DNA of 64,000 bases. It comes from Fischerella sp. CENA71. Lineage in GTDB: Bacteria > Cyanobacteriota > Cyanobacteriia > Cyanobacteriales > Nostocaceae. Each line of letters starts with the position of its first letter. Position 1 is the stretch's first letter. The DNA lies in NCBI GenBank assembly GCA_024239075.1, contig JANBVI010000025.1:34011-98010 (forward strand), given 5' to 3'. The notes under the pieces are model-generated. The model was not told where the DNA came from. It did no database searches and worked only from the letters and a program-made list of their open reading frames with translations. The translations under genes were made by a program, and so were the position numbers. Below are positions 38,055 to 53,159 of the stretch, piece by piece.

Positions 38055-38206
38055 GCTTACCCACAAATGGAAGCTGGTGGGCTTGAGTCGCACAGCGACA
38101 CACTGCGCGAACGTACACGCTCCAAAACAAAGATTTTCTTTCAGTAGCCCTTAGAAACTAACAATCTATAGGATTGAACGACTAGCCTGTTAATCGTTGT
38201 TTAACT

Positions 38207-38824
38207 ATGAAACCAGATGAGATTGAAGCAGTATTGCAAACAGCCTTTAATCGCTGTGAAATAGCTAACTGCCCTCTCACTGATATGCAAAAACAGATTT
38301 TACTGCAAGTACTAGAGCAAATTCCAGGAAACTCTGATCTAGAATTGTCAGACCAATCTAACCCATTAGATGAGTTAACACCGCAAGAGTTACAAGCTTT
38401 TATAAAGTATATTAAAGCACAAGATAAACAAGACTTTTCATGGAAAGTCCAGTTACTAAATGACTGGCTACGTGAAAATAACTCTGGAGAGGTACAATTT
38501 ATCCGCGATCGCTACGGTTTACAATGGCTTAACCGCATTCAGCCTTATCATTTTAATCAATATTCTTCTGAAGATATATTAAAGTTAAAAGTGGGCGATC
38601 GCATTGAAGTCTGCAATGCACTTTGGGAATGGGTACAAGACGATGGCCCTTGTCCACGGGAATGGTTTCCTTGCCTTGTCATTCAAGTTGATGAAATTCA
38701 CAATGGCAATGGATCTTGTATTAATTGCATTGTTCGCTTTAATAACGGTGCTGAATATGAAATTCAGGGTATTTACGAGTGGAATCGGTATAATTGGCGC
38801 TGGCTAAAGGGTGGCGACTTCTAA
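38207..38824 (+). CDS. Cyanobacterial protein of unknown function
   Basis: The 205-residue protein has a helical N-terminal part (about 1-100, with LTPQELQAFIKYIKAQDKQDFSWKVQLLNDWL). The C-terminal domain (about 120-205) begins LKVGDRIEVCNALWEWV and contains WFPCLVIQVDEI and CIVRFNNGAEYEIQGIYEW, a small beta-barrel-like pattern. I do not recognise a named family. It lies 152 bp after the kinase on the same strand, and might share its transcript. Confidence 0.75.
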   Translation: MKPDEIEAVLQTAFNRCEIANCPLTDMQKQILLQVLEQIPGNSDLELSDQSNPLDELTPQELQAFIKYIKAQDKQDFSWKVQLLNDWLRENNSGEVQFIRDRYGLQWLNRIQPYHFNQYSSEDILKLKVGDRIEVCNALWEWVQDDGPCPREWFPCLVIQVDEIHNGNGSCINCIVRFNNGAEYEIQGIYEWNRYNWRWLKGGDF

Positions 38825-38946
38825 TCGAGAAGGCTTTACCTACACTACTAGTAAAAGACGGGATTTTGACAGGTTTAGAAGTTATCTTCAACCCATAATG
38901 TTTAATAATGAATGGTGGAAATGTTGAGATTTATTAAGTTAACATT

Positions 38947-39444
38947 ATGAAGTCTTGGCGAGTATTAGCTGCCTTCATCTTAGCTATAGTACTGCTGTTG
39001 TTTCCCCTCTCAGCAGAAGCAGCAAAATTTTCTAGCAGCCGTTTTGCAGGCTACAAACCAATGAGTAACGCAGATTTTTCTGGTCAAACCTTAATAGGCG
39101 AAGAGTTTTCCAAGGTAAAGTTAGATCAGGCTAATTTTAGCAAAGCTGATTTACGGGGTGTTGTTTTTAATAGTGCATACTTAGAAAAAGCAAATTTGCA
39201 TGGCGCTGATTTTACCAATGGCATTGCTTATCTAGTTGATTTCCGGGATGCTGATTTAAGTGATGCAATTTTTACAGACACAATGTTGCTCTATTCCACT
39301 TTTGATAATGTTGACATTACAGGTACGGATTTCACTAATGCAGTTTTAGATGGCCCTGAGTTGAAAAAACTCTGTGCTAAAGCAAGTGGTGTAAATTCTA
39401 AAACGGGTGTGTCTACGAAACAGTCTTTAGAGTGTAAGTCATAG
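38947..39444 (+). CDS. Exported pentapeptide-repeat protein
   Basis: The 165-residue protein starts with a signal peptide (VLAAFILAIVLLLFPLSAEA, ending about residue 26). It then has about 15 pentapeptide repeats of the A(D/N)LXX form: ADFSGQTLIGEEFSKVKLDQ, ANFSKADLRGVVF, ANLHGADFTNG, DADLSDAIFTD. These fold as a right-handed quadrilateral beta-helix. In cyanobacteria such exported proteins are generally thought to sit in the thylakoid lumen or periplasm, with unknown function. Two cysteines near the end could form a disulfide. It is 122 bp after the previous gene. Confidence 0.88.
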   Translation: MKSWRVLAAFILAIVLLLFPLSAEAAKFSSSRFAGYKPMSNADFSGQTLIGEEFSKVKLDQANFSKADLRGVVFNSAYLEKANLHGADFTNGIAYLVDFRDADLSDAIFTDTMLLYSTFDNVDITGTDFTNAVLDGPELKKLCAKASGVNSKTGVSTKQSLECKS

Positions 39445-39807
39445 TTGTCAGTTGGTGGTTATTGATTGTTGGTTGTTGGAACAATCAACACCAACAATTA
39501 ACCCACTCACAACTTTAATCTGACTCATTAATTCAGTGTATCCACTTATCTGATTACAAGAATTAGTTAACTGCTGCTGAGTTTCAGTGAAATTTCTCAT
39601 ACTTATTATGTCATAAATATGTTAAACCAGTCTTACTAGTATTTACATATTTGTATGAGATGATTTTGTCTAATTTTTAGAATTATTTATTTTAGGTTTC
39701 ATATTAAATAAGCAACTTTCAATCACCATAAATTTTTCTTATATAATAACGTAATAGATTGATACATTATTTTTTATTTTATTTAAGCCTGGGAAAGCAC
39801 TTATTTT
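39445..39807. other. Intergenic region with small hairpins
   Basis: The 363 bp hold no gene. A nested hairpin is present at 39465-39498: ATTGTTGG pairs with CCAACAAT, and inside it TTGTT pairs with AACAA. It may end the upstream transcript, but there is no T run. Confidence 0.5.
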
Positions 39808-41442
39808 ATGTTGCAAAATCAAGGTAATCACAAGACTATAAAAAAAACAGAATTAGATGCTTATATTGGTAAGTTACTCAACAATCGTTATCTCGTCAGA
39901 GATTTAATCGGTAAAGGTGGAATGGGTAGAGTCTACCTCGCAGAAGACATTACAAAAGGTGGTATATCAGTAGCAGTTAAGATTTTGTCAATGAATTTGG
40001 CTCATCAGCAATTGTCTCAACGTTTCGCTAAAGAAATTTTCATTGGTGCTCAACTTGGGCGAAAAAGTAAACACATAGTTCGAGTATTTAGTTATGGTGT
40101 GACTAAAGACCAAATTCCCTATTATGTTATGGAGTATCTACAAGGGAAGAATCTCAAAGAAATTCTTAAAAATGAGTCTTTTAAAATCTCAAATTTTTTA
40201 GGAATTTGTTATCAAATTTGTTTAGGTTTACAATGCGCTCATCAAGGTGTAAGTATTAAAGGGGAGATTTTTCCAGTCATTCACCGAGATATTAAACCCG
40301 AAAATATATTTATTATCGAAAATAATCAAGATGAGTGTGTCAAAATTTTAGATTTTGGGATTGCTAAATTTTTAACTGATCGTTCTGGTAGGACACCGAC
40401 TGAGTCTTTCATTGGCAGTTTACCTTATTGTTCTCCAGAGCATATGGAAGGATGCAAACTCTCAGATGTGCGTTCTGATATCTACAGCTTGGGAGTGTTA
40501 ATGTTTGAAATGTTAACGGGTAAACATCCATTTCAAATCAAAAATAATTCTTTCGGTGAATGGTATCAAGCTCATCGCTTTGAAATACCGCCGCTGTTTG
40601 AAGAGTTAGTACCTCAAATGAATATACCCAAGGAACTCAAAAAATTAGTCATGAGTTGCTTGGCGAAAGAAGTAAGCGATCGCCCCGCCAATGTCAACCA
40701 AATATTATTAAGCTTAGAAAAGTTACAACGTAAATCTAATAACCTTGTTGTTGAGAATAAGAGAAATATTCAAACTCAGGAATCATTACAGTTAATACCT
40801 GTAAGTTCATTATCAGAAAAAATTTGTTTACAAAAGACTTGGCCTAACAATCAACCAATAGCTCCAATTTGTTTTCCACATTTACTACTCACACAACAGG
40901 GAAATGTGCCTACTTTCTGGGCAATGTTATCTCAAAAAGAAATAAATAAAATTTTACACAAACATAATTCTACAGAATTTGTTTTTCAAAAAACATTATA
41001 TCCAATGGTGTTATGGATCACAGTTTTATCTGATGCTCAAGTTGAATTGACAAGATGGTTATCTTGTTTTTTAGATTTAAAAGAGCCTCAAGCACAAAAA
41101 ATAGTCCAAAGTTTAGCGAATACTGGCTACTATCATCTACTTTTTTTTGCGTTGGAAGATCCTCAAGTCTGCGTTACCGTTATCACTTTAACTCTCACCG
41201 CCAGTCAATGTCAGCAACTAAGAGACTTCTTAGAGCATAGCCAAAATTTCAAGACTCTGATTTCGCCTAGAGAAAGCAAAACTATTCTGAAAACAGAATA
41301 TGAAAAAATTAAACCACGAATTCTGCATAAACTACTAAAAAAGCTCAAGCGAGAAAAATCTATTGTTAAATATTGGTTATTTAAGTTACTTGGTAAATAT
41401 TTCAATTTATTTACAAAGAACAGTAGAGAGCAATCCCGATAA
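39808..41442 (+). CDS. Ser/Thr protein kinase (Pkn2/PknB-like)
   Basis: The 544-residue kinase has domain 17-300, with GKGGMGRVYL, Lys in AVKIL, HRDIKPEN, DFG and the activation segment GSLPYCSPEHMEG. It is of a different subtype from the other two in this window. The C-terminal 200 residues have no recognised domain, and no membrane helix is evident, so it is probably cytoplasmic. It ends with a Lys/Arg-rich tail. It is 365 bp from the previous gene. The targets are unknown. Confidence 0.93.
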   Translation: MLQNQGNHKTIKKTELDAYIGKLLNNRYLVRDLIGKGGMGRVYLAEDITKGGISVAVKILSMNLAHQQLSQRFAKEIFIGAQLGRKSKHIVRVFSYGVTKDQIPYYVMEYLQGKNLKEILKNESFKISNFLGICYQICLGLQCAHQGVSIKGEIFPVIHRDIKPENIFIIENNQDECVKILDFGIAKFLTDRSGRTPTESFIGSLPYCSPEHMEGCKLSDVRSDIYSLGVLMFEMLTGKHPFQIKNNSFGEWYQAHRFEIPPLFEELVPQMNIPKELKKLVMSCLAKEVSDRPANVNQILLSLEKLQRKSNNLVVENKRNIQTQESLQLIPVSSLSEKICLQKTWPNNQPIAPICFPHLLLTQQGNVPTFWAMLSQKEINKILHKHNSTEFVFQKTLYPMVLWITVLSDAQVELTRWLSCFLDLKEPQAQKIVQSLANTGYYHLLFFALEDPQVCVTVITLTLTASQCQQLRDFLEHSQNFKTLISPRESKTILKTEYEKIKPRILHKLLKKLKREKSIVKYWLFKLLGKYFNLFTKNSREQSR

Positions 41443-42162
41443 AAAAATCACCACCAAGCATGAAAATGGGTATTGGGGAAGGTAGGGAAGGAGCAACGGG
41501 GGTCGGGCATGGGGCATACAAGTCAAAAGTCAAAAAGTTCTTAATGCGTGAATTTTGTAGACGCAAAGCAGTGAACCAGTGCGGTGGACGGGTTTCCCGG
41601 CATAAAGCACCTGGTGGGGCTACTTCCACGCCTGTCGCTACGGGCCTACCGTTCAGCGAAGCTGTTCCCGAAGGATAGGCATGCGTGAATTTTGAATTGT
41701 TTTGTCTCCCTTCCCTTCTCCGCGCCTCCTTGTCTCCATATCCTCCAAAAGGAGGATGCGATCGCTTTGGCAATTTTGATGTGTATAATTCAGATCAATC
41801 GTCACCATAGTATTTTTCTTTTACTTTGAGACTTGACATTTTTTCCATGATCTATATTAGGTCTGCTAAGAGTACGCAAAGAAAATACACAGGAGAAAAT
41901 TTGATTTGAAGGTAATATGTCGTATCATAGATTTAATGTAATCATAACTATTTGAAAAAAAATATATAAGAAATTTTTACAGTAACTATCGTTGAATTGT
42001 CTAGGTAAATAATTCCATTTTGAGAACTATAAGGATAATCTATTTTTAACAAGATTAAACAAATATAAATTTGTTTAAACTCCCATCGCGACGTTGTCTG
42101 GAGGTAACGGTTGTGTTTTTACAGCCGCTATTTGGTTTTGCTGCAAATTTAGAGGTGAGTTA
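41443..42162. other. Intergenic region upstream of the CO2-uptake NDH-1 cassette
   Basis: No gene was seen in about 720 bp. The left part holds a ~123-bp dispersed repeat (41558-41680) and G/C-rich repeat DNA. The right part (41800-42160) is AT-rich and should carry the promoter of the NDH-1 cassette. The open frame on the plus strand before ATG 42163 starts upstream of the AGAGGTGAG ribosome-binding site and is not real. Confidence 0.6.
41558..41680 (+). repeat. Dispersed ~123-bp repeat, copy 1
   Basis: It runs from TAGACGCAAAGCAGTGAACC to CGAAGGATAGGC and contains GGGTTTCCCGGCATAAAGCACC and CTACCGTTCAGCGAAGCTGTTC. An inverted near-copy lies at 49839-49966. On its right it is followed by TTTTGAATTGTTTTGTCTCCC, which also follows copy 2 on the same strand. 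Confidence 0.85.
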
Positions 42163-44028
42163 ATGACTCAGTTCCTGCTTGAGACTGTTTGGTTAGTACC
42201 TTTATATGCCTTAGTCGGTGCGCTTTTAGCTGTGCCTTGGTCGCCGGGAATTATTAGGCGTACGGGGCCAAGACCAGCAGGTTATGTCAATTTAATCATG
42301 ACATTTTTAGCGTTTCTTCACGCTACTTTGTCATTTCCTGCTACTTGGAACCAGCCTGCTTATCAGGTATTTATACCTTGGTTAAATACTGCGGGTTTAA
42401 ACCTTACCATTGATTTAGAAATATCTTCGATCAGTGTGGGCGCAATGATCGTAGTTTGTGGCTTAAATTTGCTAGCACAGATTTATGCCATTGGCTACAT
42501 GGAAATGGACTGGGGTTGGGGACGTTTCTATTCTTTGTTGGGATTATTTGAAGCAGGACTATGCGCTCTTGCTTTATGCAACAACTTATTCTTTAGCTAC
42601 GTCATTCTGGAAGTCCTGACTCTAGGAACCTACTTACTAGTTGGGTTGTGGTTTAGCCAACCTTTAGTAGTCACTGGTGCGAGAGATGCGTTCTTAACTA
42701 AACGGGTAGGCGACTTATTCCTGTTAATGGGAGTACTCGGAATCTGGCCTCTAGCGCACACTTGGAATTATACAGAATTAGCCGAGTGGGCGGCTAATGC
42801 TAATGCTAATGTAAATCCAACACTAATTGCACTAGTAGGTTTAGCATTAATTGCTGGACCAATGGGTAAGTGCGCCCAATTTCCCTTGCATCTGTGGTTA
42901 GATGAGGCAATGGAAGGGCCTGTCCCCAGTACAATTTTGCGTAACTCGGTGGTGGTTGCTAGTGGCGCTTGGGTGCTAATTAAACTACAACCTGTTTTTA
43001 GTTTGTCGCCGATAGTTTCTATGGCGATGATTGGTATCGGTGCAATCACAGCAGTCGGTGCTTCGTTCATTGCGATCGCTCAAATTGATATTAAACGCTG
43101 TTTGTCTTATTCTGTCAGTGCCTACTTGGGTTTAGTATTTATCGCTGTAGGTACACAGCAAGACGAAGCCGCACTGTTGTTAGTACTTACCCATGCTATA
43201 AGTGCAGCTTTGCTGGTGATGAGTACAGGTGCTGTGATCTGGAACAGTATTACTCAAAATGTCACTCAGTTGGGTGGACTATGGTCACGTCGTCCCATAT
43301 CTGGATTAGCCTATGTAGTAGGTATTTTAGGGTTAATTGGTTTTCCTCCCTTGGGTAGCTTTTGGGCTTTGTTGAAATTAGCAGATGGACTGTGGACAAC
43401 AAAACCTTGGCTGATTGGAATTGTCATAGCAGTCAATGCTTTAACAGCTTTTAGTTTAACCAGAGAATTCTGTCTGATTTTTGGTGGTAAACCCAAGCCA
43501 ATGAGTGAGCGATCGCCCGAAGTTAGCTGGCAAATGGCGTTACCAATGATGATTTTGCTGGGCTTTACCTTACATCTTCCTTTAATTTTGCAAAGTTTAT
43601 CACTCTTACCGAGTTGGGCTGAACTAAATAAAGATGTTGCACTTCTTTTAATTTGGTCAAGCATTTTTGGTTGCAGTATTAGTGGTGCAATTTATCTGGG
43701 CAATGTACCAAAACCAATTCGCCTACCTTGGAAAGGTTTACAAGATTTAATTGCCTACGACTTTTACACTCCCAAACTCTATCGGATGAGCATTGTTTTG
43801 AGTGTTGATCTGATTTCTAAACTCGCCGACATTGTTGATCGTTTTGTCGTTGATGGCATTGTTAACTTGGTTGGTTTAGCCTCCATTGGTGGTGGCGAAA
43901 GTCTCAAGTATAGTACCTCTGGACAAACCCAATTTTATGCCTTCACTGTCCTTTTAGGAGTCGGAGTCTTAGGAATATTCGTCACCTGGCCCTACTGGGG
44001 AAATCAATTTTTAGACATGGTGTTTTAG
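42163..44028 (+). CDS. ndhF: NDH-1 subunit NdhF, CO2-uptake type (NdhF3/NdhF4)
   Basis: The ATG at 42163 follows AGAGGTGAG with ideal spacing; the longer frame is spurious. The 621-residue protein has about 14-16 membrane helices and the antiporter-like core: LEVLTLGTYLLVGLW, GKCAQFPLHLWLDEAMEGPVPST and DIKRCLSYSVSAYLGL. The opening WLVPLYALVGALLAVPWSPGIIRRTGPRPAGYVN is typical of the F3/F4 forms of NDH-1MS/MS' rather than respiratory NdhF1. The complex sits in the thylakoid membrane and couples electron flow and proton movement to CO2 hydration. The order here is ndhF, carbonic anhydrase, ndhD, cup. F3 versus F4 was not resolved. Confidence 0.93.
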   Translation: MTQFLLETVWLVPLYALVGALLAVPWSPGIIRRTGPRPAGYVNLIMTFLAFLHATLSFPATWNQPAYQVFIPWLNTAGLNLTIDLEISSISVGAMIVVCGLNLLAQIYAIGYMEMDWGWGRFYSLLGLFEAGLCALALCNNLFFSYVILEVLTLGTYLLVGLWFSQPLVVTGARDAFLTKRVGDLFLLMGVLGIWPLAHTWNYTELAEWAANANANVNPTLIALVGLALIAGPMGKCAQFPLHLWLDEAMEGPVPSTILRNSVVVASGAWVLIKLQPVFSLSPIVSMAMIGIGAITAVGASFIAIAQIDIKRCLSYSVSAYLGLVFIAVGTQQDEAALLLVLTHAISAALLVMSTGAVIWNSITQNVTQLGGLWSRRPISGLAYVVGILGLIGFPPLGSFWALLKLADGLWTTKPWLIGIVIAVNALTAFSLTREFCLIFGGKPKPMSERSPEVSWQMALPMMILLGFTLHLPLILQSLSLLPSWAELNKDVALLLIWSSIFGCSISGAIYLGNVPKPIRLPWKGLQDLIAYDFYTPKLYRMSIVLSVDLISKLADIVDRFVVDGIVNLVGLASIGGGESLKYSTSGQTQFYAFTVLLGVGVLGIFVTWPYWGNQFLDMVF

Positions 44029-44071
44029 TCTTGCTTTGTTTGATTAACTTTGGTGTTGGAGGAGCATTTTC

Positions 44072-44770
44072 ATGAGTGGTATTGTTTCAAGAAGAAATTT
44101 ACTGAAGCTAGGCGCAGGAGCAGTAGGTACAGGAGTATTAACAGCTGGAGTTGGCTCGGAATTATTTTCTCCACCAAAAGCAATTGCCGAGAATAATATA
44201 TCTCCTGATCAAGCATTAAAACAACTCCTAGAAGGTAATAAACGATTTGCTGAAAGAAAACGTCAAAACCCACATCAAAGTTATACACGTCTAGCAGAAG
44301 TCGCTAAAGGTCAAAAACCCTTTGCTTCTATTCTTAGTTGTGCAGATTCTCGTGTTCCTTCAGAAATTATTTTTGATCAAGGATTCGGAGATTTATTTGT
44401 CTGTCGTGTAGCTGGTAATGTTGCCACACCAGAAGAAATTGGCAGTTTAGAATTTGGCAGCTTAGTATTAGGCACAAAAGTAATCATGGTCGTGGGTCAT
44501 GAAAAATGTGGTGCGGTAGATGCCACAATCAAAGGCGCTCAAGTTCCAGGCCAAATTGGTAGTTTAATAGCTGCGATTAAACCTGGTATAGAACAGTCAA
44601 AAAATCAACCTGGAGATAAGTTAGAAAATGCTTGTAAAGCCAACATTTTGGCTCAAATAGAAAAACTGAAAAAATCGCCAGTTCTTGCACAATTAATTCA
44701 AGAAAATAAACTCAAAATTGTCGGTGGATACTATGATTTAGATACTGGTAAAGTCACCATGGTCAGTTAG
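44072..44770 (+). CDS. Tat-exported beta-class carbonic anhydrase
   Basis: The 232-residue protein has a twin-arginine signal, SRRNLLKLGAGAVGTG, with a cleavage region before AENN at about residue 40. The mature enzyme has all beta-CA zinc-site residues: Cys90, Asp92 and Arg94 in SCADSRVPSE, His143 and Cys146 in VVGHEKCGAV. It interconverts CO2 and bicarbonate, here outside the cytoplasm, in the periplasm or thylakoid lumen. GGAGGAG precedes the ATG, and it lies 43 bp after ndhF, so it is clearly in the NDH-1 cassette. EcaB of Synechocystis is a similar exported beta-CA; orthology is not shown. Confidence 0.92.
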   Translation: MSGIVSRRNLLKLGAGAVGTGVLTAGVGSELFSPPKAIAENNISPDQALKQLLEGNKRFAERKRQNPHQSYTRLAEVAKGQKPFASILSCADSRVPSEIIFDQGFGDLFVCRVAGNVATPEEIGSLEFGSLVLGTKVIMVVGHEKCGAVDATIKGAQVPGQIGSLIAAIKPGIEQSKNQPGDKLENACKANILAQIEKLKKSPVLAQLIQENKLKIVGGYYDLDTGKVTMVS

Positions 44771-44785
44771 CAATTCACTAGGTTT

Positions 44786-44851
44786 GTAGTGAGGACTTTA
44801 GTCCTCTATGAGCGCTGTATTCGCTCAATAAAGGACTAAAGTCATTACTAA
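44786..44851. repeat. Inverted repeat, second copy of the GTAGTRAGGACTTTAGTCCT element
   Basis: 44786-44805 pairs with 44832-44851 with two mismatches, and the 26-nt loop itself holds GAGCG/CGCTC. It is between the carbonic anhydrase gene and ndhD and could affect mRNA stability in the cassette. Confidence 0.8.
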
Positions 44852-44948
44852 AAACTTTGAATTGACCTTATAGACAAAGAAGCTTTTACCTCATCTAAAT
44901 TATTGATTGGCATCAACGTCTGAAAACATCTATTTACTATCCCAAATT

Positions 44949-46448
44949 ATGCTCAGTGTTTTAATTTGGCTCCCGATTTTTGCGGCTGCTATTATCGCCT
45001 TATTACCTGGAAGTATTTCTGCTAATCGTGTGCGTTTAGGAGCATTGTTTGCTTCTGGAACAGTACTGTTGTGGAATCTTTTCCTCTTACTCAAATTTGA
45101 TATCAACAATCCAGGGATGCAGTTACAAGAGTATCTCCCTTGGAATGAAACGCTTGGTTTAAACTATCAACTTGGAGTAGATGGACTTTCTATCTTACTC
45201 CTGGTCTTAAATAGCTTGCTCACTTGGATTGCAATTTATAGCAGTAGTCAGCAAACAGAACGTCCCCGACTTTTTTACTCTCTAATTTTGTTAGTGAGTG
45301 GTGGAGTAGCAGGTGCATTTTTAGCAGAGAATTTACTGCTATTCTTCCTATTCTACGAATTAGAATTAATTCCCTTTTACCTACTAATTAGTATTTGGGG
45401 TGGGCAAAGAAGGGCATATGCTGGTATTAAGTTTCTGATTTACACAGCTGTTTCCGGTGCATTAATTCTGGCTAGTTTCTTGGGTATTGTCTGGCTGACT
45501 GGTTCCACTAGCTTTAACTACGATGCCATTTCTACTCAAACTTTATCGGCAGCAATGCAAATAGTTCTCTTAGCCGGAATTATACTCGGCTTTGGGATCA
45601 AAATTCCTTTGATTCCCTTGCATACTTGGCTACCAGATGCTTATGTTGAAGCTTCCGCACCGATCGCCATTCTGCTTGGTGGTGTATTGGCAAAATTAGG
45701 AACCTACGGAATATTGCGGTTTGGAATGGCGTTGTTTCCCGATGCTTGGAGTACGATCGCACCAACTTTGGCAATTTGGGGCGCAGTCAGTGCGATGTAT
45801 GGAGCAGTAACAGCGATCGCTCAAAAAGATATCAAGCGCATGGTAGCATATAGCTCCATCGGTCACATGGGTTACATTCTCCTCGCAGCGGCTGCTAGTA
45901 CACCCCTCGCCCTAGTTGGTGGTGTTGCCCAAATGGTTAGTCACGGTATTATTCTCGCTATTCTCTTCCATTTAGTCGGAGTTGTAGAAGCTAAGGTGGG
46001 AACCCGCGAGTTGGATGTTCTCAATGGTTTAATGAGTCCCGTACGCGGTTTACCTCTGATCAGCGCCTTACTAGTTTTAGGCGGTATGGCTAGCGCGGGT
46101 ATTCCTGGGATGACAGGATTCATTGCTGAATTTATCGTTTTCCAAGGCAGTTTCTCTATCTTCCCCATCTCTACCCTATTATGTGTAGTTGCCACAGGTT
46201 TAACAGCCGTTTACTTCGTCATCCTCCTCAACCGTACCTGTTTTGGTAAACTCGACAACAACCTCGCCTACTATCCACGAGTTCAGTGGCACGAAAAAAT
46301 GCCAGCCTTGATTCTGTCAGCTTTGATCTTATTCTTAGGACTACAACCCACTTGGTTAGTGCGTTGGGCTGAACCAACAACAACAGCCATGGTTGCAGTG
46401 ATTCCACCCATCGAAAAAGTAGCCACACCACAAATAGCTGTGAAATAA
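44949..46448 (+). CDS. ndhD: NDH-1 subunit NdhD, CO2-uptake type (NdhD3/NdhD4)
   Basis: I take the ATG at 44949 (499 residues, MLSVLIWLPIFAAAIIALLP), which fits the family better than the TTG at 44907. It has about 13-14 membrane helices and the antiporter-like motifs YELELIPFYLLISIWGG (the functional Glu region), PLHTWLPDAYVEASAPIAILLGGVLAKLG and DIKRMVAYSSIGHMG. With NdhF it forms the distal membrane arm that carries CupA or CupB. It is 178 bp after the carbonic anhydrase and 155 bp before the cup gene. D3 and D4 could not be told apart. Confidence 0.93.
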   Translation: MLSVLIWLPIFAAAIIALLPGSISANRVRLGALFASGTVLLWNLFLLLKFDINNPGMQLQEYLPWNETLGLNYQLGVDGLSILLLVLNSLLTWIAIYSSSQQTERPRLFYSLILLVSGGVAGAFLAENLLLFFLFYELELIPFYLLISIWGGQRRAYAGIKFLIYTAVSGALILASFLGIVWLTGSTSFNYDAISTQTLSAAMQIVLLAGIILGFGIKIPLIPLHTWLPDAYVEASAPIAILLGGVLAKLGTYGILRFGMALFPDAWSTIAPTLAIWGAVSAMYGAVTAIAQKDIKRMVAYSSIGHMGYILLAAAASTPLALVGGVAQMVSHGIILAILFHLVGVVEAKVGTRELDVLNGLMSPVRGLPLISALLVLGGMASAGIPGMTGFIAEFIVFQGSFSIFPISTLLCVVATGLTAVYFVILLNRTCFGKLDNNLAYYPRVQWHEKMPALILSALILFLGLQPTWLVRWAEPTTTAMVAVIPPIEKVATPQIAVK

Positions 46449-46603
46449 AGGTTAATGGTTAGTAGATAGTGGTTAACCAATTCAAAATCTCAGAAATTCC
46501 AGTTTTGAACCAGAAAGTTCTTGTTTGAAACCCACTCCCTACATACCCCGCACCCCCCACACTCCCCATTTCTCCTATCCCCTATTTATCAAAAAAGGAA
46601 AAA

Positions 46604-47926
46604 ATGGTACAAACTCCAGATAGAGCAGCTACTAAATTACCGCCTTCTAGTCATGAATTTGCAGAAATCATTCATCGTTTAGAAGCTGGCGGTTCAATGT
46701 TACCAGATACGCCAGAAAACCTCATGCAAATTATCGGTATTTATAAAGCCTATGCAGTACCGATGGATTTCTATTGGCGTGATCTACTTTATATTGCTGA
46801 ACAGGTATTTTTAGATCCGCTTCCCTTTTTCAAATACTTTATTTCTCAGGAGTATTTAGAGCGCCATAATCATTATGCAGGTGATGATGCTGACTTGCGA
46901 ATTTGGCGGGGTGAAGCAACAGCCCATCCAGAACTTTTGGCATTTATGGAAAAGGGTGAAACCTTCAAAATGCCAAAATTACTTCATCATTTGTTTCACG
47001 ATCGCGTCAACATGGAATTTGCCGAAGCTTGTATGCGCGCAATGCTTTGGCACCGGAAAATGTATGCGCCAGTAAATCAATTTGATGCTTATCTGGATAG
47101 TGAAGAATATAAAGCCAATGCCGATCGCGCAATTAAGGCATACTTCCAAGGTAATCCCTTAATGTTGGGACTTTATAAACTGTTTCCAGATATGTTTTTG
47201 GAACAGTGTCGCCAGATGTCTTATTATGCAAACCTGGGTTTGTTCTGGGAAGTCATGGCACCAGTTTTCTTTGAAATGTCAGACATCTACGACGAAGGCG
47301 GATTTAAAGGTGTCCCCGATGCAATGAATTTTTTAGTCAATGGAATTTTTGCGATCGCCGGGCGTCCCATTTACCACCATGTTTATATCAGGGGTGAATG
47401 TTACGAAATTATCCCCAAGTCCAAGGGTTTTACCTGGCTTTATGAAGCCGCATTACCTTATGTAGAAGCAGTTTTCTATCGTACTGCTCCCTTCAGAGGC
47501 ACAAAATCATACAATGCTCAAGCCAGACAAGTCCCTGAAAAACAAGAAGATTTCCACTACGGTATTTTATATGCCGATGTCTTTCCTGTAGGAACTGCGG
47601 GCATTCCACCCACACTTTTAATGCAAGATATGTTGCATTTCTTGCCCCAATATCTTCTAGATTATTACAAAAATTATTGTCGGGGTGAAGATGATATGTT
47701 GATTCAGTTGGGAATTTCTTTCCAACGATCAATGTACAACGTTACCTCTGCTGTCATTCAAGCTTTACGAACTGCACTTTTATATCCATTAGATGATCCA
47801 AATCCCAAACATTTACAAGCAAATCGAGAATTTTTTGAAGCACAATTAAATCGTTTTTGTCGCCCTGAATATAACATGCGTGATGCTGCCCGTATACGCC
47901 AAATTCAGCGACAAGATTATAGATAG
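46604..47926 (+). CDS. CO2 hydration protein CupA/CupB (ChpY/ChpX)
   Basis: The 440-residue soluble protein is the signature subunit of CO2-uptake NDH-1. It contains YKAYAVPMDFYWRDLLYIAE, NHYAGDDADLRIWRGEATAHPELLAFMEKGE and KLLHHLFHDRVNMEFAEACMRAM. His129 and Arg134 have the five-residue spacing of the zinc-site His/Arg reported for Thermosynechococcus CupA. It hydrates CO2 to bicarbonate on the cytoplasmic side, on top of NdhF/NdhD. No fasciclin-domain cupS gene follows, unlike many ndhF3-ndhD3-cupA clusters, which slightly favours the constitutive CupB system. GGAAAAA precedes the ATG. Confidence 0.94.
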   Translation: MVQTPDRAATKLPPSSHEFAEIIHRLEAGGSMLPDTPENLMQIIGIYKAYAVPMDFYWRDLLYIAEQVFLDPLPFFKYFISQEYLERHNHYAGDDADLRIWRGEATAHPELLAFMEKGETFKMPKLLHHLFHDRVNMEFAEACMRAMLWHRKMYAPVNQFDAYLDSEEYKANADRAIKAYFQGNPLMLGLYKLFPDMFLEQCRQMSYYANLGLFWEVMAPVFFEMSDIYDEGGFKGVPDAMNFLVNGIFAIAGRPIYHHVYIRGECYEIIPKSKGFTWLYEAALPYVEAVFYRTAPFRGTKSYNAQARQVPEKQEDFHYGILYADVFPVGTAGIPPTLLMQDMLHFLPQYLLDYYKNYCRGEDDMLIQLGISFQRSMYNVTSAVIQALRTALLYPLDDPNPKHLQANREFFEAQLNRFCRPEYNMRDAARIRQIQRQDYR

Positions 47927-48140
47927 CTTGGTTAGAGAAGACAAGGAGGACTTATCAATTAAAAATGAAAAATTAAAAATTAAAAATTGGTAAGAGGGAG
48001 ATGGGAGACAAGAAAGTGATTTTTCTCCCCACACTCTCCACACTCCTCATTTTCTATTCTGTGTTCCCTCTTCCCTGCGATACAAGACGATTAGAGTCAA
48101 ACTAGTGCAACCTAAGAGTAGTGTAGATATTTAGTAAATT

Positions 48141-48533
48141 ATGGACGCTGCTAAACGCCTTGCTACTCTCAATCGCATTCGTAAACTTAGCCGACTGATG
48201 GATACATCTATACGTATTCCTTTGATCGGATTTCGCATTGGATTAGACCCTATAATTGGTCTAGTTCCCGGTGCTGGTGATTTAATCAGTACAGCATTTT
48301 CAGCCTATATTATATATTTAGCTACTCGCTTTGGTATACCACGCCAAGACCTAACCAAAATGATTTTCAATGTTGGTTTAGAAGCAGTCGTTGGTACAGT
48401 ACCTTTAGTAGGTGATTTATTTGATGCTTTCTATAAGTCCAATATTCGTAATTTGGCAATTTTAGAGCAACATTTAATGGTAGTTGAACCAGAACTAGAA
48501 GAATTAGAAGAATTGGTTTCAATTAAATCTTAA
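48141..48533 (+). CDS. DUF4112 membrane protein
   Basis: The 130-residue protein matches DUF4112: LSRLMDTSIRIPLIGFRIGLDPIIGLVPGAGDLIS and then GLEAVVGTVPLVGDLFDAFYKSN. It has two membrane segments and a C-terminal acidic tail. The repeated P-L-x-G-x-x-x-D pattern shows an internal duplication. Function is unknown. It lies 215 bp after the cup gene, with repeat-like DNA between, and is probably a separate transcript. A hairpin with a T-rich tail follows. Confidence 0.85.
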   Translation: MDAAKRLATLNRIRKLSRLMDTSIRIPLIGFRIGLDPIIGLVPGAGDLISTAFSAYIIYLATRFGIPRQDLTKMIFNVGLEAVVGTVPLVGDLFDAFYKSNIRNLAILEQHLMVVEPELEELEELVSIKS

Positions 48534-48563
48534 CTCTTAAAATGTACATTTTATTATCATGAG

Positions 48564-48620
48564 ATAGGACTAATATTTTGTTTAAAAAAATCAAATACTA
48601 GTCCTATATTTATTTTTTTA
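48564..48620 (+). terminator. Probable intrinsic terminator between convergent genes
   Basis: ATAGGACTA (48564-48572) pairs with TAGTCCTAT (48599-48607) and a T-rich run follows (to 48619), overlapping the CadD-like stop. The loop is long (26 nt) but AT-paired inside. Confidence 0.6.
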
Positions 48621-49272
48621 TCAAACTTAATAAGGTAAACGTACCTCTTTCATACATAATATACAAACCTAAAGCAATTAGTACAAAAGGTACAATAGCA
48701 CTACCATAGCGACTTAATATAGAAGCTATTGTTACTTGCCGAGCTAATAGATAAGCTACGACACACCAAACGCCAACCATAATAAAAAAGACTGCCAGAG
48801 TAATTAGTAAACTACTAAAATTAATACCAGCAAACAATGGAATATAAATACCAATATTATCACCGCCATTAGCAAAAGTGATTGCTGCAACTTTATAGGT
48901 TTGAGGACTGATCAGACTAGAAATAAAAGATAACAGAGGATTAGTAGTTCTAGATGATGTGAAATCACTCGTCACTGTTTGGATCTCTACTCTTTCTGTT
49001 TCTTGACTGAATAATTGTTTAATTCCAATTGCGATCGGTAGTATTCCCAATAAGCCTATCCAGGCTCGTGGTATCACTAAACCACCAAAGAACCCTGGTA
49101 AACTAGCAATAATAATAAAGGTGAAACCAAGATATTGACCGACAAAAATATGCCGACGCCGAAAATAAGTATTTATCTGGGAAAAAAACAGCAATAAAAT
49201 GAGGATATCGTCAATATTAGTAGCGGCAAAAGCAATTATGCTCTCAGTCAAAATGCTGATAATTTTATTCAT
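48610..49272 (-). CDS. CadD-like cadmium-resistance family membrane transporter
   Basis: The 220-residue protein has about six membrane helices with the family's TNIDDILILLLFF near the N-terminus. FANGGDNIGIYIPLFA lies in the second half. CadD proteins export Cd2+ (and perhaps other cations), and are about 205 residues in Gram-positives. A His/Arg-rich loop FRRRHIFVGQYLG follows the second helix. The two N-I/D-D motifs are probably paired in a repeat. In cyanobacteria the substrate is untested. No ArsR/CadC-type regulator is adjacent. The HTH gene 0.7 kb away is a different family. Confidence 0.85.
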   Translation of the reverse strand: MNKIISILTESIIAFAATNIDDILILLLFFSQINTYFRRRHIFVGQYLGFTFIIIASLPGFFGGLVIPRAWIGLLGILPIAIGIKQLFSQETERVEIQTVTSDFTSSRTTNPLLSFISSLISPQTYKVAAITFANGGDNIGIYIPLFAGINFSSLLITLAVFFIMVGVWCVVAYLLARQVTIASILSRYGSAIVPFVLIALGLYIMYERGTFTLLSLIKK

Positions 49273-49660
49273 GCGAAATTGTCAGTGATAATCATTTAGT
49301 GAATATATAGATTTATTATTCATACATCTTGCTCAATAAATTGGTTTGTGTAGCCGTAATTACGAATATCGCCAGCTATTTTTCTGGGATGGTCTAGTGT
49401 TCGACTAAGGTTTCCCACATCAAGTTTTGATTGTACGCCTGTGTATCCTTCGTCCACCGTTAGCACCGCAACCTCATTTCGCTGTTCGTCAAGATATTGA
49501 TTCAATGAGGGTAGCTATCAACCGCTAGTATCGTGAGTGATTCTTTTGAGTTTAGCTTTTATCCTTTGACCACTTTTTCAGATTGAAATTATGATGATAT
49601 GATGCTACAATGGCAAAGGCGTAGCTATAGTTTCGCTATAAACAAGTATAAATCTCTTTT
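49273..49660. other. Intergenic region with a short uncertain frame
   Basis: About 390 bp precede the tRNA gene. A minus-strand frame of 61 codons (49320-49505) starts with TTG and reads GYTGVQSKLDVGNLSRTLDHPRKIAGDIRNYGYTNQF in part, which looks protein-like. It has no ATG, and it may be the tail of a lost gene. The TATAG/CTATA hairpin at 49626-49640 lies just before the tRNA. Confidence 0.45.
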
Positions 49661-49745
49661 GGAGAGGTGGCAGAGCGGTTGAATGCGGCGCACTCGAAAT
49701 GCGTTTTAGGGAAACCTAACGGGGGTTCGAATCCCCCCCTCTCCG
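49661..49745 (+). tRNA. tRNA-Ser (CGA)
   Basis: An 85-nt cloverleaf with a long variable arm, as in serine tRNAs. Acceptor stem GGAGAGG pairs with CCTCTCC, discriminator is G. The D-arm is GGCAGAGCGGTTGAATGC, the anticodon loop holds CGA (49695-49697), and the T-arm reads GGGGGTTCGAATCCCCC. CCA is not encoded. Confidence 0.96.
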
Positions 49746-49838
49746 TTAAGTAATCATATGATTTATCATTGGGCATTGGCCAATAAATTAAAAGTTCTTT
49801 ATTTTGACTTTTGACTTACCCTGCGGGAAGCCGCTTAC

Positions 49839-49966
49839 CTACCCTTCAAGAACAGCTTCGCTGAACGGTAGGCGCGTAGCGACTTCACAGAAGTAGCCCT
49901 CCGGGTACGCCAGGTGCTTTATGTCGGGAAACCCTAGTCGAGTACTGGCTCACCGCTCTGCGTCTA
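49839..49966 (-). repeat. Dispersed ~128-bp repeat, copy 2 (inverted relative to 41.6 kb)
   Basis: Its reverse complement aligns with 41558-41680 nearly end to end, including GGGTTTCCCGACATAAAGCACC and CTACCGTTCAGCGAAGCTGTTC. A ~20-bp flank following it (TTTTGAATTGTTTTGTCTCCC) is on the same strand as at copy 1, so the central part is inverted between conserved flanks. Confidence 0.85.
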
Positions 49967-50012
49967 TGACTTTTGAATTGTTTTGTCTCCCTTGTCCCTT
50001 TCCTTGGTTTCC

Positions 50013-50246
50013 TTACTCGCCAAATTTTACGCCTAAATCAACGTTAAGCACTCGCTCTATTTTTCTGAGAGTATCTTCAGGTAAAGCATCTCGCACTCTT
50101 TCCGCTTCAATATCATGCCAGTAAGCTCGGCTCATTTGAGCTTCGCCTGCTAAAACTTCGACTGAACGTCCATCAGCTTTTCTTGCTTGTCTAATTTTTG
50201 CTCCTAGTCCTTCGACTTCAACGTCTGTGTAGCGTCTGATTTTCAC
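50013..50246 (-). CDS. XRE-type helix-turn-helix regulator
   Basis: I take the GTG at 50246 (77 residues, MKIRRYTDVEVEG) with AGGTGG upstream; a GTG at 50255 is also possible. The protein is little more than an HTH domain: LGAKIRQARKADGRSVEVLAGEAQMSRAYWHDIEAE, then LRKIERVLNVDLG. It resembles short Cro/C1-like repressors or antitoxins. Its promoter (50282-50310) carries a palindrome in the spacer, which suggests autorepression. No toxin gene is next to it. Confidence 0.85.
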   Translation of the reverse strand: MKIRRYTDVEVEGLGAKIRQARKADGRSVEVLAGEAQMSRAYWHDIEAERVRDALPEDTLRKIERVLNVDLGVKFGE

Positions 50247-50691
50247 TGTATCCACCTATAGATATTGTCGATTTTCTTTTTAATATAAATCATCGTACGA
50301 TTATTGACAAATGCCATACGATGTTTTACTATAGAAAGTATAGAGAAAGCGCTCCCGGTCTAAACAACTGAAAGCGCCTCTGTATATCCAGAACTGTTTT
50401 TTACATTTGGCGCAGGCTGCGGCGATATCGTGTAATCGCCGCCACTTGGAAACTTCTCCACCCCGATTTTTCTAAGACATCTTTGTAGTTAATGATTGTC
50501 TCTGGCACGCGAAGCGATCGCACTATACCTTAATACATTTTCTGTCTCCAAAGTCAATCATGCTGTCGTTATTTACTTCTGTTATCCCCTCTGAGTCTGC
50601 CTTACAGCAATGTTAAGAAAAATGCAGGTGATGGATAGCCACAAGCGGGGAGGGGGAAAATTCTATGCAGCTTCACAAAGAATTGGTATCA
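50247..50691. other. Intergenic region
   Basis: About 445 bp. Aside from the HTH gene's promoter/operator near 50280-50323, it holds GC-rich segments (50340-50530) that form no gene. It also carries a TGGCACGCGAAGCGATCGC stretch with a HIP1 octamer. No RNA gene was recognised. Confidence 0.45.
50282..50310 (-). promoter_or_regulatory. Sigma-70-type promoter of the HTH gene with palindromic operator
   Basis: On the minus strand TTGTCA (50310-50305), a 17-bp spacer and TATATT (50287-50282) form a near-consensus promoter. The spacer holds the palindrome ATCGTACGAT (50292-50301). A related half, CATCGTATG, lies just upstream (50315-50323). This fits an autoregulatory operator. Confidence 0.75.
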
Positions 50692-51123
50692 CTATTCATT
50701 GATAACTGATAACTGATTTAATTGACTTTGCAAATATTTACCCCATTCTGCGGCTAAAGGAATTTCTGTAAAAGGAACTCGCACAGAATTTGCAGATTCA
50801 GGAAATACAAATTCTAACTCAATCGTCCGACCTTTTTCTGGTATTTGCTGCATATCAACAGTTTTATCGTCCACCAAAAGGTGTATTTGTTGAACATGCT
50901 CCAAAGAAAATGTTTCTAATTTAATCGGGCCTTTTGGTGTTGGTTTTCCCCAAGTAATTGAGTTACCTTTTTGACCGAGTACCGCATAAATATCGTACTT
51001 CGCCTTATCAAATTGCTCTGCCCAGGTTCGATAAGCTTCAATTTTTTGATATTCTTGAGAACCTTGCCAAGCTAACCAGAAAAATGCTGCTAACAGAGGT
51101 AGCCACAATAGACCGTGTTCCAT
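50692..51123 (-). CDS. Membrane-anchored protein of unknown function
   Basis: From the ATG at 51123 the protein has 143 residues. It begins MEHGLLWLPLLAAFFWLAWQG, one membrane anchor. The rest is soluble: YDIYAVLGQKGNSITWGKPTPKGPIKLETFSLEHVQQIHLLVD, then LEFVFPESANSVRVPFTEIPLAAEWGKYLQ. The pattern resembles a small beta-rich domain on the cytoplasmic or periplasmic side. The longer frame to 51273 would add a Lys/Phe-rich stretch unlike a protein. I do not recognise the family. It is divergent from the subtilisin gene. Confidence 0.75.
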   Translation of the reverse strand: MEHGLLWLPLLAAFFWLAWQGSQEYQKIEAYRTWAEQFDKAKYDIYAVLGQKGNSITWGKPTPKGPIKLETFSLEHVQQIHLLVDDKTVDMQQIPEKGRTIELEFVFPESANSVRVPFTEIPLAAEWGKYLQSQLNQLSVINE

Positions 51124-51332
51124 GATGGATTTTAACTCTAAAGTCAAAAAGAAAGAACTTTTGGAGAAAAAGTTAAAGGAACAAGAATCAAAGAAAATTC
51201 CTTTTCTATTCCCCCTTAACTTTACCTCTTTCACTATTTTCTTATGTGTAGCTATGATGCGAAATACAGTCACCTAGCAACTGTATAAGTTATCGTAATG
51301 AGCATACTGGCAAAAAGCGGTGATGACTTGAT

Positions 51333-53159
51333 ATGAGAAAGGTTTTATTTTTGTGCTTGTTTGTCATCGGGCTGAGTGCTGCGGTGTTTGGTTTCCTAAA
51401 TTTTCAGGGACTAGCAGCAAAAGGTGAATTTGAGACGATTGTGCTGGATTTTCGCGAAAATATTCCCAAAGAAGAATTGCAACAGGATTTACAAGCGATC
51501 GCTCAACAATACAATGTCACACCCCGATTAGACAATCAATTCTCCGCCAAGGATAATGTCTATATCATCGAAGGCGATAAAAAGCGACTCAAAGAATTGC
51601 GGAAGTCTAAAATTGCCTCAGCAACGGAATTTATTGAGCCTAACTATATTTATAAAATTCCCAAATTAGATAAAGACAGAGTACCAGATGAGCAGTTTAG
51701 CACTGGTGCTAGCGATCCTAATGACCCAATGTACAGCAAGCAATGGCATTTGCACAACATCGGTGTTGTCGGTGCGTGGAGAGAAACTAAAGGTAGTGGC
51801 GTCACAGTCGCAGTCATAGACACTGGCGTCACCAAAGTGCGTGACTTAGAAGAAACCAAGTTTGTCAAAGGCTACGACTTTGTCAACGACACAGAAGAAG
51901 CCAAAGACGACAACGGACACGGTACTCACGTGGCTGGTACGATCGCTCAAGCTACTAATAACAATTATGGTGTAGCCGGAGTTGCTTACGAAGCTAGTAT
52001 CATGCCTTTAAAGGTACTCAGTGCCTATGGTGGTGGTACTGTTGCTGATATTGCCGAAGCGATTAAATTTGCTGCTGATCATAACGCCAATGTCATTAAC
52101 ATGAGCTTGGGTGGTGGTGGTGAAAGCCATCTCATGAAAGATGCGATCGAATATGCCCATAAAAAAGGTGTCGTAATTATAGCAGCAGCAGGGAACGAAA
52201 ACCAAAATTCTGCCGCATATCCAGCCCGTTATCCCCACGTCATCGGCGTCTCAGCCTTGGGGCCAGATGGCGAAAAAGCTCCCTATTCTAACTTTGGCGC
52301 TGGGGTAGATATTTCTGCTCCTGGTGGTAGTGATGCGGGTAAAGTTTTGCAAGAAACTATCGATCCTGAAACTGGTGAAGGCGTGTTTCTAGGTTTACAA
52401 GGAACAAGTATGGCTGCTCCCCATGTTGCGGGTGTCGCTGCACTCATCGAAGCTGCTGGTGTCAAAGAACCAAATGAAGTTTTGCAAGTCCTCAAAGAAT
52501 CAGCCAGAGTGATTGGGGAAGATAATTTAAATTACTATGGTGCAGGACAACTAAGTGCTGAAGCCGCAGTTCAACGCGCCGTACGTGGACAAATTAGCTT
52601 CCAAGACTTTTTCCGTTGGTTGCGGGATAATGGCTATTTCAACCCCGGTTTTTGGATTGATGGTGGTGCAGTTGCATTATTACCCAAGATTTTGATGGTG
52701 TTAGGCTCTTATCTACTGGCTTGGTTTTTACGGGTTTATTTCCCGTTTACCTGGGGTTGGAGTTTATTCAGTGGTTTAGTTGCAGGTAGTTCTGGATTGT
52801 TTTTCCTCAAATCAATCTACATTTTTGACTTACCGCAATGGCCTTTCCGCTTGTTGGGTAGTTCCATACCCGAACTCGGTAACACTATTCAAGGAACCAG
52901 CGCCTTAAACCCCTTATTTGCTAGCGTACTCATTCCCCTAGTGTTAGTACTATTACTCCTCGGACATCCGCAATGGAAATGGTTTGCGATCGGTTCATCC
53001 TTGGGTGTCGCCGCTTGTTTAGGAGTGAGTGCGGTATTAGATCCGGCTGTTTGGGGTTTAGGAAGTGGAATGTTAGCTCGCAGTTTCCTAATAATTAATG
53101 CCTTACTTTGTTTTGGTTTAGCTCGTTTAGCCGTAAGAAACGAAGAACAATCAGCATAA
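51333..53159 (+). CDS. Subtilisin-type (S8) serine protease with C-terminal membrane domain
   Basis: The 608-residue protein has a signal peptide (about 1-28) and an I9-like propeptide region (about 35-110). The S8 catalytic triad is Asp163 in VAVIDTGV, His196 in NGHGTHVAGT and Ser359 in GTSMAAPHVAG. The C-terminal 170 residues hold about five membrane helices (from FWIDGGAVALLPKILMVLGSYLL on), which is unusual for subtilases. The active domain should face the periplasm or lumen, held by the membrane part. All catalytic residues are kept, so it is probably active. The substrate is not known. Confidence 0.92.
   Translation: MRKVLFLCLFVIGLSAAVFGFLNFQGLAAKGEFETIVLDFRENIPKEELQQDLQAIAQQYNVTPRLDNQFSAKDNVYIIEGDKKRLKELRKSKIASATEFIEPNYIYKIPKLDKDRVPDEQFSTGASDPNDPMYSKQWHLHNIGVVGAWRETKGSGVTVAVIDTGVTKVRDLEETKFVKGYDFVNDTEEAKDDNGHGTHVAGTIAQATNNNYGVAGVAYEASIMPLKVLSAYGGGTVADIAEAIKFAADHNANVINMSLGGGGESHLMKDAIEYAHKKGVVIIAAAGNENQNSAAYPARYPHVIGVSALGPDGEKAPYSNFGAGVDISAPGGSDAGKVLQETIDPETGEGVFLGLQGTSMAAPHVAGVAALIEAAGVKEPNEVLQVLKESARVIGEDNLNYYGAGQLSAEAAVQRAVRGQISFQDFFRWLRDNGYFNPGFWIDGGAVALLPKILMVLGSYLLAWFLRVYFPFTWGWSLFSGLVAGSSGLFFLKSIYIFDLPQWPFRLLGSSIPELGNTIQGTSALNPLFASVLIPLVLVLLLLGHPQWKWFAIGSSLGVAACLGVSAVLDPAVWGLGSGMLARSFLIINALLCFGLARLAVRNEEQSA

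Follow-up and report, generated by a model that had tools for sequence, protein, structure and literature searches.

The stretch of DNA analyzed here, 64,000 nucleotides of Fischerella sp. CENA71 (GCA_024239075.1, contig JANBVI010000025.1, positions 34,011 to 98,010 of the forward strand; hereafter the window), carries a row of four genes on one strand (+), ndhF3 -> Tat-signal beta-carbonic anhydrase -> ndhD3 -> cupA, in which a carbonic anhydrase (CA) with a twin-arginine translocation (Tat) signal lies between two subunit genes of the CO2-uptake complex NDH-1MS. The features of the cluster, in window coordinates and with the basis of each assignment, are as follows.

42163..44028, + strand: ndhF3, antiporter-like subunit of NDH-1MS (open reading frame, family model, match to 6tjv)
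44058..44064, + strand: GGAGGAG, likely ribosome-binding site of the CA gene (sequence)
44072..44770, + strand: Tat-signal beta-carbonic anhydrase, 232 aa (open reading frame, PF00484, aligned zinc ligands)
44782..44855, + strand: strong hairpin between the CA gene and ndhD3 (folding, repeat search)
44907..46448, + strand: ndhD3, antiporter-like subunit (open reading frame, family model, match to 6tjv)
46604..47926, + strand: cupA, CO2-hydration protein (open reading frame, family model, match to 6tjv)

The gene cluster and its carbonic anhydrase with an export signal

An earlier, sequence-only reading of this DNA had described the order ndhF, Tat beta-CA, ndhD and cup on one strand, and the open reading frames (ORFs) and their coordinates bore it out. 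The stop codon of ndhF3 ends at 44028 and the ATG of the CA gene is at 44072, with the GGAGGAG that this reading had assigned to the CA gene inside the 43-nt gap; the CA-ndhD3 and ndhD3-cupA gaps measure 136 nt and 155 nt, respectively. The three NDH-1 products were recognized by their family models (NdhF by TIGR01960, 1008 bits; NdhD by PRK07363, 896 bits; Cup by TIGR01964, 757 bits). The TTG at which the ndhD3 reading frame opens (44907) may be too far upstream, and the real start may be the ATG at 44949, because the family model begins at residue 15. The cluster is presumably co-transcribed as a single operon. Matches to sigma-70 promoters (22 found, 17.2 in shuffled sequences) and terminators (7 against 5.6) were near the shuffle level, and the RbcR-type motif with one mismatch at 41856 is of a kind that chance alone supplies (21 matches across the window against 23.5 expected); hence none of them was used as evidence. 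The hairpin at 44782-44855 has arms of 28 nt, and the whole CA-ndhD3 gap gave a folding z of -6.2. With up to 2 mismatches allowed, one of these arms has 35 sites across the genome (0 for the backwards control), and therefore the hairpin is not specific to the operon.

The identity of the complex was addressed by comparison with 6tjv, the NDH-1MS structure reported by Schuller (2020; PMC6981117; here and below, statements from the literature refer to the available portions of the cited papers). The Cup protein of the window matched the CupA chain of 6tjv (chain P) over its full length with 723 bits, whereas the other Cup of the genome, encoded on contig C55, matched only part of the chain with 348 bits. 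For the window NdhF the match to chain F was of 735 bits, and for NdhD that to chain D was of 624 bits. The Cup is thus CupA, and the cluster is therefore that of the low-CO2-inducible NDH-1MS (NDH-1_3), the ndhF3, ndhD3 and cupA set and not the NDH-1_4 set. The assignment as CupB was rejected on the same full-length match, so that the 'cupA/B' of the sequence-only reading held as regards the Cup family and was narrowed to CupA. In our reading of the alignment, H129 and R134 of the window CupA correspond to the zinc ligands H130 and R135 of the 6tjv CupA, and the positions R37, Y41 and E114, which in NdhF3 have been named as the entry of the CO2 channel (PMC6981117), are present in the window NdhF. 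The window thus shares with NDH-1MS its three genes and the named active-site and channel residues. It differs in the exported CA, which goes unmentioned in the available portions of the NDH-1MS literature, where the Synechocystis operon is given as ndhF3/ndhD3/cupA/sll1735.

The CA belongs to PF00484 (137.5 bits against a cut-off of 25.7). The zinc ligands named by the sequence-only reading, C90, D92, H143 and C146, were found within the motifs SCADSRV and GHEKCGA, and together with R94 they align with 2a5v, which with 1ym3 is the best solved relative (118 bits). The active site is intact, and catalysis is predicted. At residues 6-12 the protein carries the twin-arginine signal SRRNLLK (SRRNLLKLG), and cleavage, as judged by eye, is likely to occur after AIA (residue 39). 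No lipobox was found in the protein, whose first Cys is residue 90. An AlphaFold model from a shallow alignment reached a mean pLDDT of 46. Five PF00484 hits were obtained in the genome (contigs C25, C27, C42, C45 and C76), and none on C55, the contig that carries the other ndhF-ndhD-cup set. Three other paralogues (L001-L003) are without the twin arginine. The possibility that the window CA is CcaA, the carboxysomal beta-CA with which it has the PF00484 family in common, was rejected, since its match to CcaA (5swc) is of only 53 bits, whereas that of a paralogue in the same genome is of 341 bits.

Recurrence and descent of the gene order

In order to see whether the arrangement is found in relatives, the 80 best relatives of the window CupA in named genome contigs (named loci) were analyzed. 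The CA gene precedes ndhD3 on the same strand in 36 of them, and it follows ndhF3 in 35 of those 36, ndhF3 lying beyond the contig end in the remaining one (L052); 2 of the 80 are cut by contig ends. The carriers include Fischerella, Westiellopsis, Chlorogloeopsis, Scytonema, Brasilonema, Tolypothrix and several Nostoc, and other Nostoc and one Scytonema have no CA in the slot. Among 291 genomes of the class, of which 243 have a CupA match at E 1e-100 or better, the ndhF3-CA-ndhD3 order was present in at least 19, from 7 families and including the genome of the window. This is a lower bound, because only the best CA and CupA matches were considered and the DNA around part of the hits was examined; three of the 19 duplicate named loci (L082, L059 and L049). 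In a further 40 CupA regions, which had been picked for having no adjacent CA hit so that a CA-free result was expected, none of the 39 with all three genes had a CA between ndhF3 and ndhD3. In all 48 loci tested, the CA gene, ndhF3 and ndhD3 share one strand. The recurrence in at least 19 of 291 genomes and in 36 of 80 loci argues that the order is more than chance.

Two variants were observed at NDH-1_3 genes, and in both the CAs belong to other clades. In L103 the CA gene is divergent and lies 0.6 kb upstream of ndhF3, and in L102 a CA gene stands on either side of the NDH-1_3 genes. The latter locus (G020:C15:5000-24000) reads, on one strand, ndhF-ndhD-cup, sbtA, PII-like gene, CA, ndhF3-ndhD3-cupA, CA; its first ndhF-ndhD-cup set is of the NDH-1_4 type, with a Cup 44% identical to that of the window. 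In L103 (10548-11150), a single genome, a CDP-alcohol phosphatidyltransferase gene separates ndhD3 from cupA. Downstream of the window's cupA the next ORF (at least 80 aa) encodes a DUF4112 protein (48141-48533), as it does in the Fischerella relatives L006, L007, L008 and L010; in L009 this gene lies 4 kb farther on, and of the 80 named loci the remaining 75 showed no match to it in the available DNA.

The sequence features of the CA are kept in the operon CAs analyzed. Two arginines within the first 30 residues, together with CxDSR and HxxC at normal spacing, were found in 55 of 55 operon CAs (52 once three duplicate genomes are removed), and a lipobox-like motif in only one of them, so that at the level of the sequence the export signal and the zinc site are intact. 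Quick, unrooted trees were then used to follow the descent of the CA (IQ-TREE, 83 CAs) and of the cluster (FastTree, ndhF3+ndhD3+cupA). On the CA tree the 52 operon members required 2 label changes, against a shuffled mean of 25.2, and 48 of them formed one group, with L021 and L078 unplaced beside it and the two operon CAs of family f5 grouping with two CAs from elsewhere. The cluster tree was built from 130 loci, of which 48 carry the CA gene and 82 do not, after removal of three duplicates and of loci whose genes were truncated; five identical rows stayed in. On this tree the presence or absence of the CA required 20 changes, against a shuffled mean of 39. When the two trees were compared over the 48 loci, 15 of 45 splits were common (shuffled mean 0.2), only 1 of 12 strongly supported CA splits conflicted with the cluster tree, and the distances correlated with r 0.76, a value reached in 0 of 2000 permutations. 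These results indicated that the operon CAs are essentially one lineage, whose descent appears largely congruent with that of the cluster. The simplest reading is that the CA gene had one main origin in the slot, was passed on with the cluster and was lost many times, although the transfer of whole clusters is a possible alternative history.

Related carbonic anhydrases beside other uptake genes

Tat beta-CAs of the same family are embedded in two further types of carbon-uptake cluster. In one, an sbtA-family transporter gene and a PII-like gene (~104 aa) are followed by the CA gene, and in the other the CA gene lies inside or after ABC transporter genes of the cmp/nrt type. SbtA and Cmp were named from PF05982 and from PF13379/PF00528 plus similarity, with cmp not separated from nrt, and the PII-like label rests on a match to 5d4n; we infer that the PII-like protein is SbtB. 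These clusters differ from that of the window in that the partner is a gene of the bicarbonate-importer type and not NDH-1MS, and in that their CA mostly belongs to another clade. The sbtA-PII-CA row is present in many loci (e.g., L184, L186 and L203) and also on contig C76 of the source genome itself (L218:4334-6344, G000:C76). The cmp/nrt-type arrangement, inside or just after the ABC genes, was seen in L199, L104, L120, L119, L122, L127, L179 and L209.

These contexts were counted in 40 regions, namely the next best CA hits plus the C76 copy, picked before their contexts were known. The CA gene lies less than 1 kb from sbtA in 22 and from a cmp-type gene in 3, one is beside a lone NdhD-like gene, and in 14, among them L193, which is cut by a contig end, no such context was found. 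Furthermore, the context labels track the CA tree, with 11 changes for 117 CAs against a shuffled mean of 52.8; the 117 are a non-random sample with operon members over-represented, and 3 of their 57 NDH labels are divergent neighbours, two of these beside a lone NdhD-like gene. There is also a clade of CAs that have no carbon-uptake context. When ten neighbours of CAs without such a context, eight of them from that clade, were scanned, the only carbon-uptake gene found was the lone NdhD-like gene of L204, and a hybrid histidine kinase recurred (L188 and L204). In these two loci of genus g97 the Tat beta-CA gene lies downstream of the kinase gene, and an ORF matching in size and position is present in L113; L113 and L204 further have a lone antiporter-like gene, divergent from the CA gene and assigned to PF00361 by the scan of L204.

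The closest described counterpart, compared through its published description, is EcaB (Slr0051) of Synechocystis PCC 6803, likewise an exported beta-class CA with a twin-arginine signal. EcaB is reported to be active as a CA, to be mostly bound to thylakoids and to interact with CupA/CupB (PMC10096703, PMC9283085, PMC11360081). Unlike the window CA, EcaB bears a putative site of lipid attachment, and its gene, slr0051 by locus tag, lies outside the Synechocystis ndhF3 operon (sll1732-1734). The cmp-linked CAs of L122 and L127 do bear a lipobox-like motif, located by eye after the Tat signal, and fall outside the operon clade; they may be of the EcaB type and are candidate orthologues. A survey of carbon-concentrating mechanism (CCM) genes reported no EcaB orthologue in 12 alkaliphiles, including Cyanobacterium PCC 7702 (NZ_KB235926), and noted that the genes of each NDH-1 complex lie together (PMC5472144). 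On contig KB235926.1 of this strain (locus L023) we found a CA gene between ndhF3 and ndhD3 whose product is 74% identical to that of the window. The published statement may stand, because the query of the survey was the Synechocystis sequence, and the available text of the survey does not mention an exported CA in the NDH-1_3 cluster of PCC 7702. The sequence-only reading had not recognized the operon position as one already described, and we likewise found no description of a CA inside the ndhF3-ndhD3 cluster in the available portions of the open-licence PMC literature, subscription papers being outside this scope; the available portions of PMC10536570, PMC9120777 and PMC5472144 treat CCM gene order with no mention of it. 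An exported EcaB-like CA and NDH-1MS are both known, and their arrangement in one gene cluster appears to be new.

Proposed site and role of the carbonic anhydrase

The side that supplies NDH-1MS with CO2, cytoplasm or lumen, is disputed (PMC10096703, PMC13249358). A CO2 channel has been proposed that starts on the lumenal side, crosses NdhF3 and reaches CupA (PMC6981117), which contradicts the older view (PMC13249358), and an acidic lumen favours CO2 (PMC10096703). A CA in the lumen, with its gene between ndhF3 and ndhD3, agrees with the model of lumenal supply. We propose, with a probability of about 0.4, that the CA is the exported partner of NDH-1MS and feeds CO2 to the complex from the lumen. 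The proposal draws on what the sequences show, namely the recurring gene order and common strand, the co-inheritance of CA and cluster, the conserved twin arginine and zinc residues and the identity of the Cup as CupA, and on the published reports on EcaB and on the NdhF3 channel. Made from the same gene cluster as this low-CO2 uptake complex, the CA would, after export by Tat, most likely occupy the thylakoid lumen or the lumenal face of NDH-1MS, where it would keep CO2 and bicarbonate in equilibrium. In the light, when the lumen is acidic, the balance at the entrance of the non-polar NdhF3 channel would shift towards CO2. Through this channel the CO2 would reach the CupA zinc site, which lies towards the cytoplasm, and would be hydrated there to bicarbonate. 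The proposal is conditional on the CA being exported, residing in the lumen, contacting NDH-1 and working in the direction given. The two-sided system suggested by the sequence-only reading finds precedents in the interaction of EcaB with CupA/CupB and in the lumenal NdhF3 channel, and its choice of side and partner would remain as conditional as ours. A works-like analogy is offered by CAH3 of Chlamydomonas, a lumenal CA that makes CO2 from bicarbonate (PMC10096703); CAH3 is of the alpha class, eukaryotic and serves the pyrenoid, and is not a relative of the window CA.

Several observations weigh against this proposal. The gene order described by the sequence-only reading recurs in relatives and the active site is intact, so that at the level of the sequence neither of the grounds for refutation that it had named on synteny and activity applies. 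Its 'fixed place', however, is too strong, because in 42 of the 80 named loci ndhF3 and ndhD3 are directly adjacent (39-657 nt) and the presence of the CA changes about 20 times on the cluster tree; evidently, the complex works without the CA in many strains. The other NdhF of the genome shares R37, Y41 and E114, which are therefore not specific to either complex. The repeat hairpin between the CA gene and ndhD3 could uncouple the transcripts. Among the at least 19 genomes, cupA sits on another contig in G231 and the ndhF3 match is split into three pieces in G256, and the two relatives of the f5 operon CAs are outside the slot, one of them beside sbtA. The chief doubt, however, concerns location, because Tat in cyanobacteria serves both the thylakoid lumen and the periplasm, so that the signal cannot separate them and would fit either, and because related CAs go with plasma-membrane transporters.

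The strongest rival is a periplasmic CA that is only co-regulated with NDH-1MS and has no physical tie to the complex; it would serve every uptake system by keeping CO2 and bicarbonate in equilibrium on the outer side of the plasma membrane. We consider this a serious, if somewhat doubtful, possibility. SbtA and Cmp-type products are plasma-membrane bicarbonate importers (PMC13249358), and the related clades in the sbtA-PII-CA and cmp-type clusters indicate a periplasmic ancestral site, with which the Tat signal agrees; EcaB, moreover, has also been detected in the periplasm (PMC10096703, PMC11360081). On the other hand, the gene lies inside the ndhF3-ndhD3 pair and is co-inherited with it, the operon clade is distinct from most sbtA- and cmp-linked CAs, and the bulk of EcaB was reported on thylakoids (PMC10096703).

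A lumenal CA working in the reverse role, hydrating leaked CO2 or consuming lumen protons, as proposed for algal CAH3, and not feeding CupA, appears unlikely. A CA catalyzes both directions, EcaB is described as turning CO2 to bicarbonate and aiding redox balance under high pH, high light or low CO2 (PMC9283085), and CAH3 provides a precedent (PMC10096703); however, the acidic lumen favours the dehydration of bicarbonate (PMC10096703), and no recognizable gene of the water-oxidizing complex was found among the ORFs of at least 80 aa at 38000-52000. Finally, a chance insertion kept by hitch-hiking, with no functional link, would account for the patchy presence and the about 20 changes, but it is already disfavoured and very improbable, because the slot is the same in 7 families, the CAs form essentially one lineage, the trees are congruent, and the export signal and active site are intact in 55 of 55 rows.

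A broader reading, which we hold tentatively but regard as plausible, is that the exported beta-CA family is specialized by partner, with an NDH-1MS clade, an SbtA clade and one or more cmp-type clades, and that the NDH-1MS clade is lumenal and feeds the NdhF3 channel, forming a two-sided carbon pump. The physiological roles of external CAs have been called unknown (PMC11360081), and exported CA lineages paired with particular uptake systems would give them one. A CA with an export signal that is inherited with ndhF3-ndhD3 is genetic evidence that reactions on the opposite side of the membrane are important. The arrangement makes the question of the side from which CO2 is supplied directly testable, with related strains that have or lack the CA gene as a natural experiment, and the pattern bears on efforts to move carbon-concentrating mechanisms into crops.

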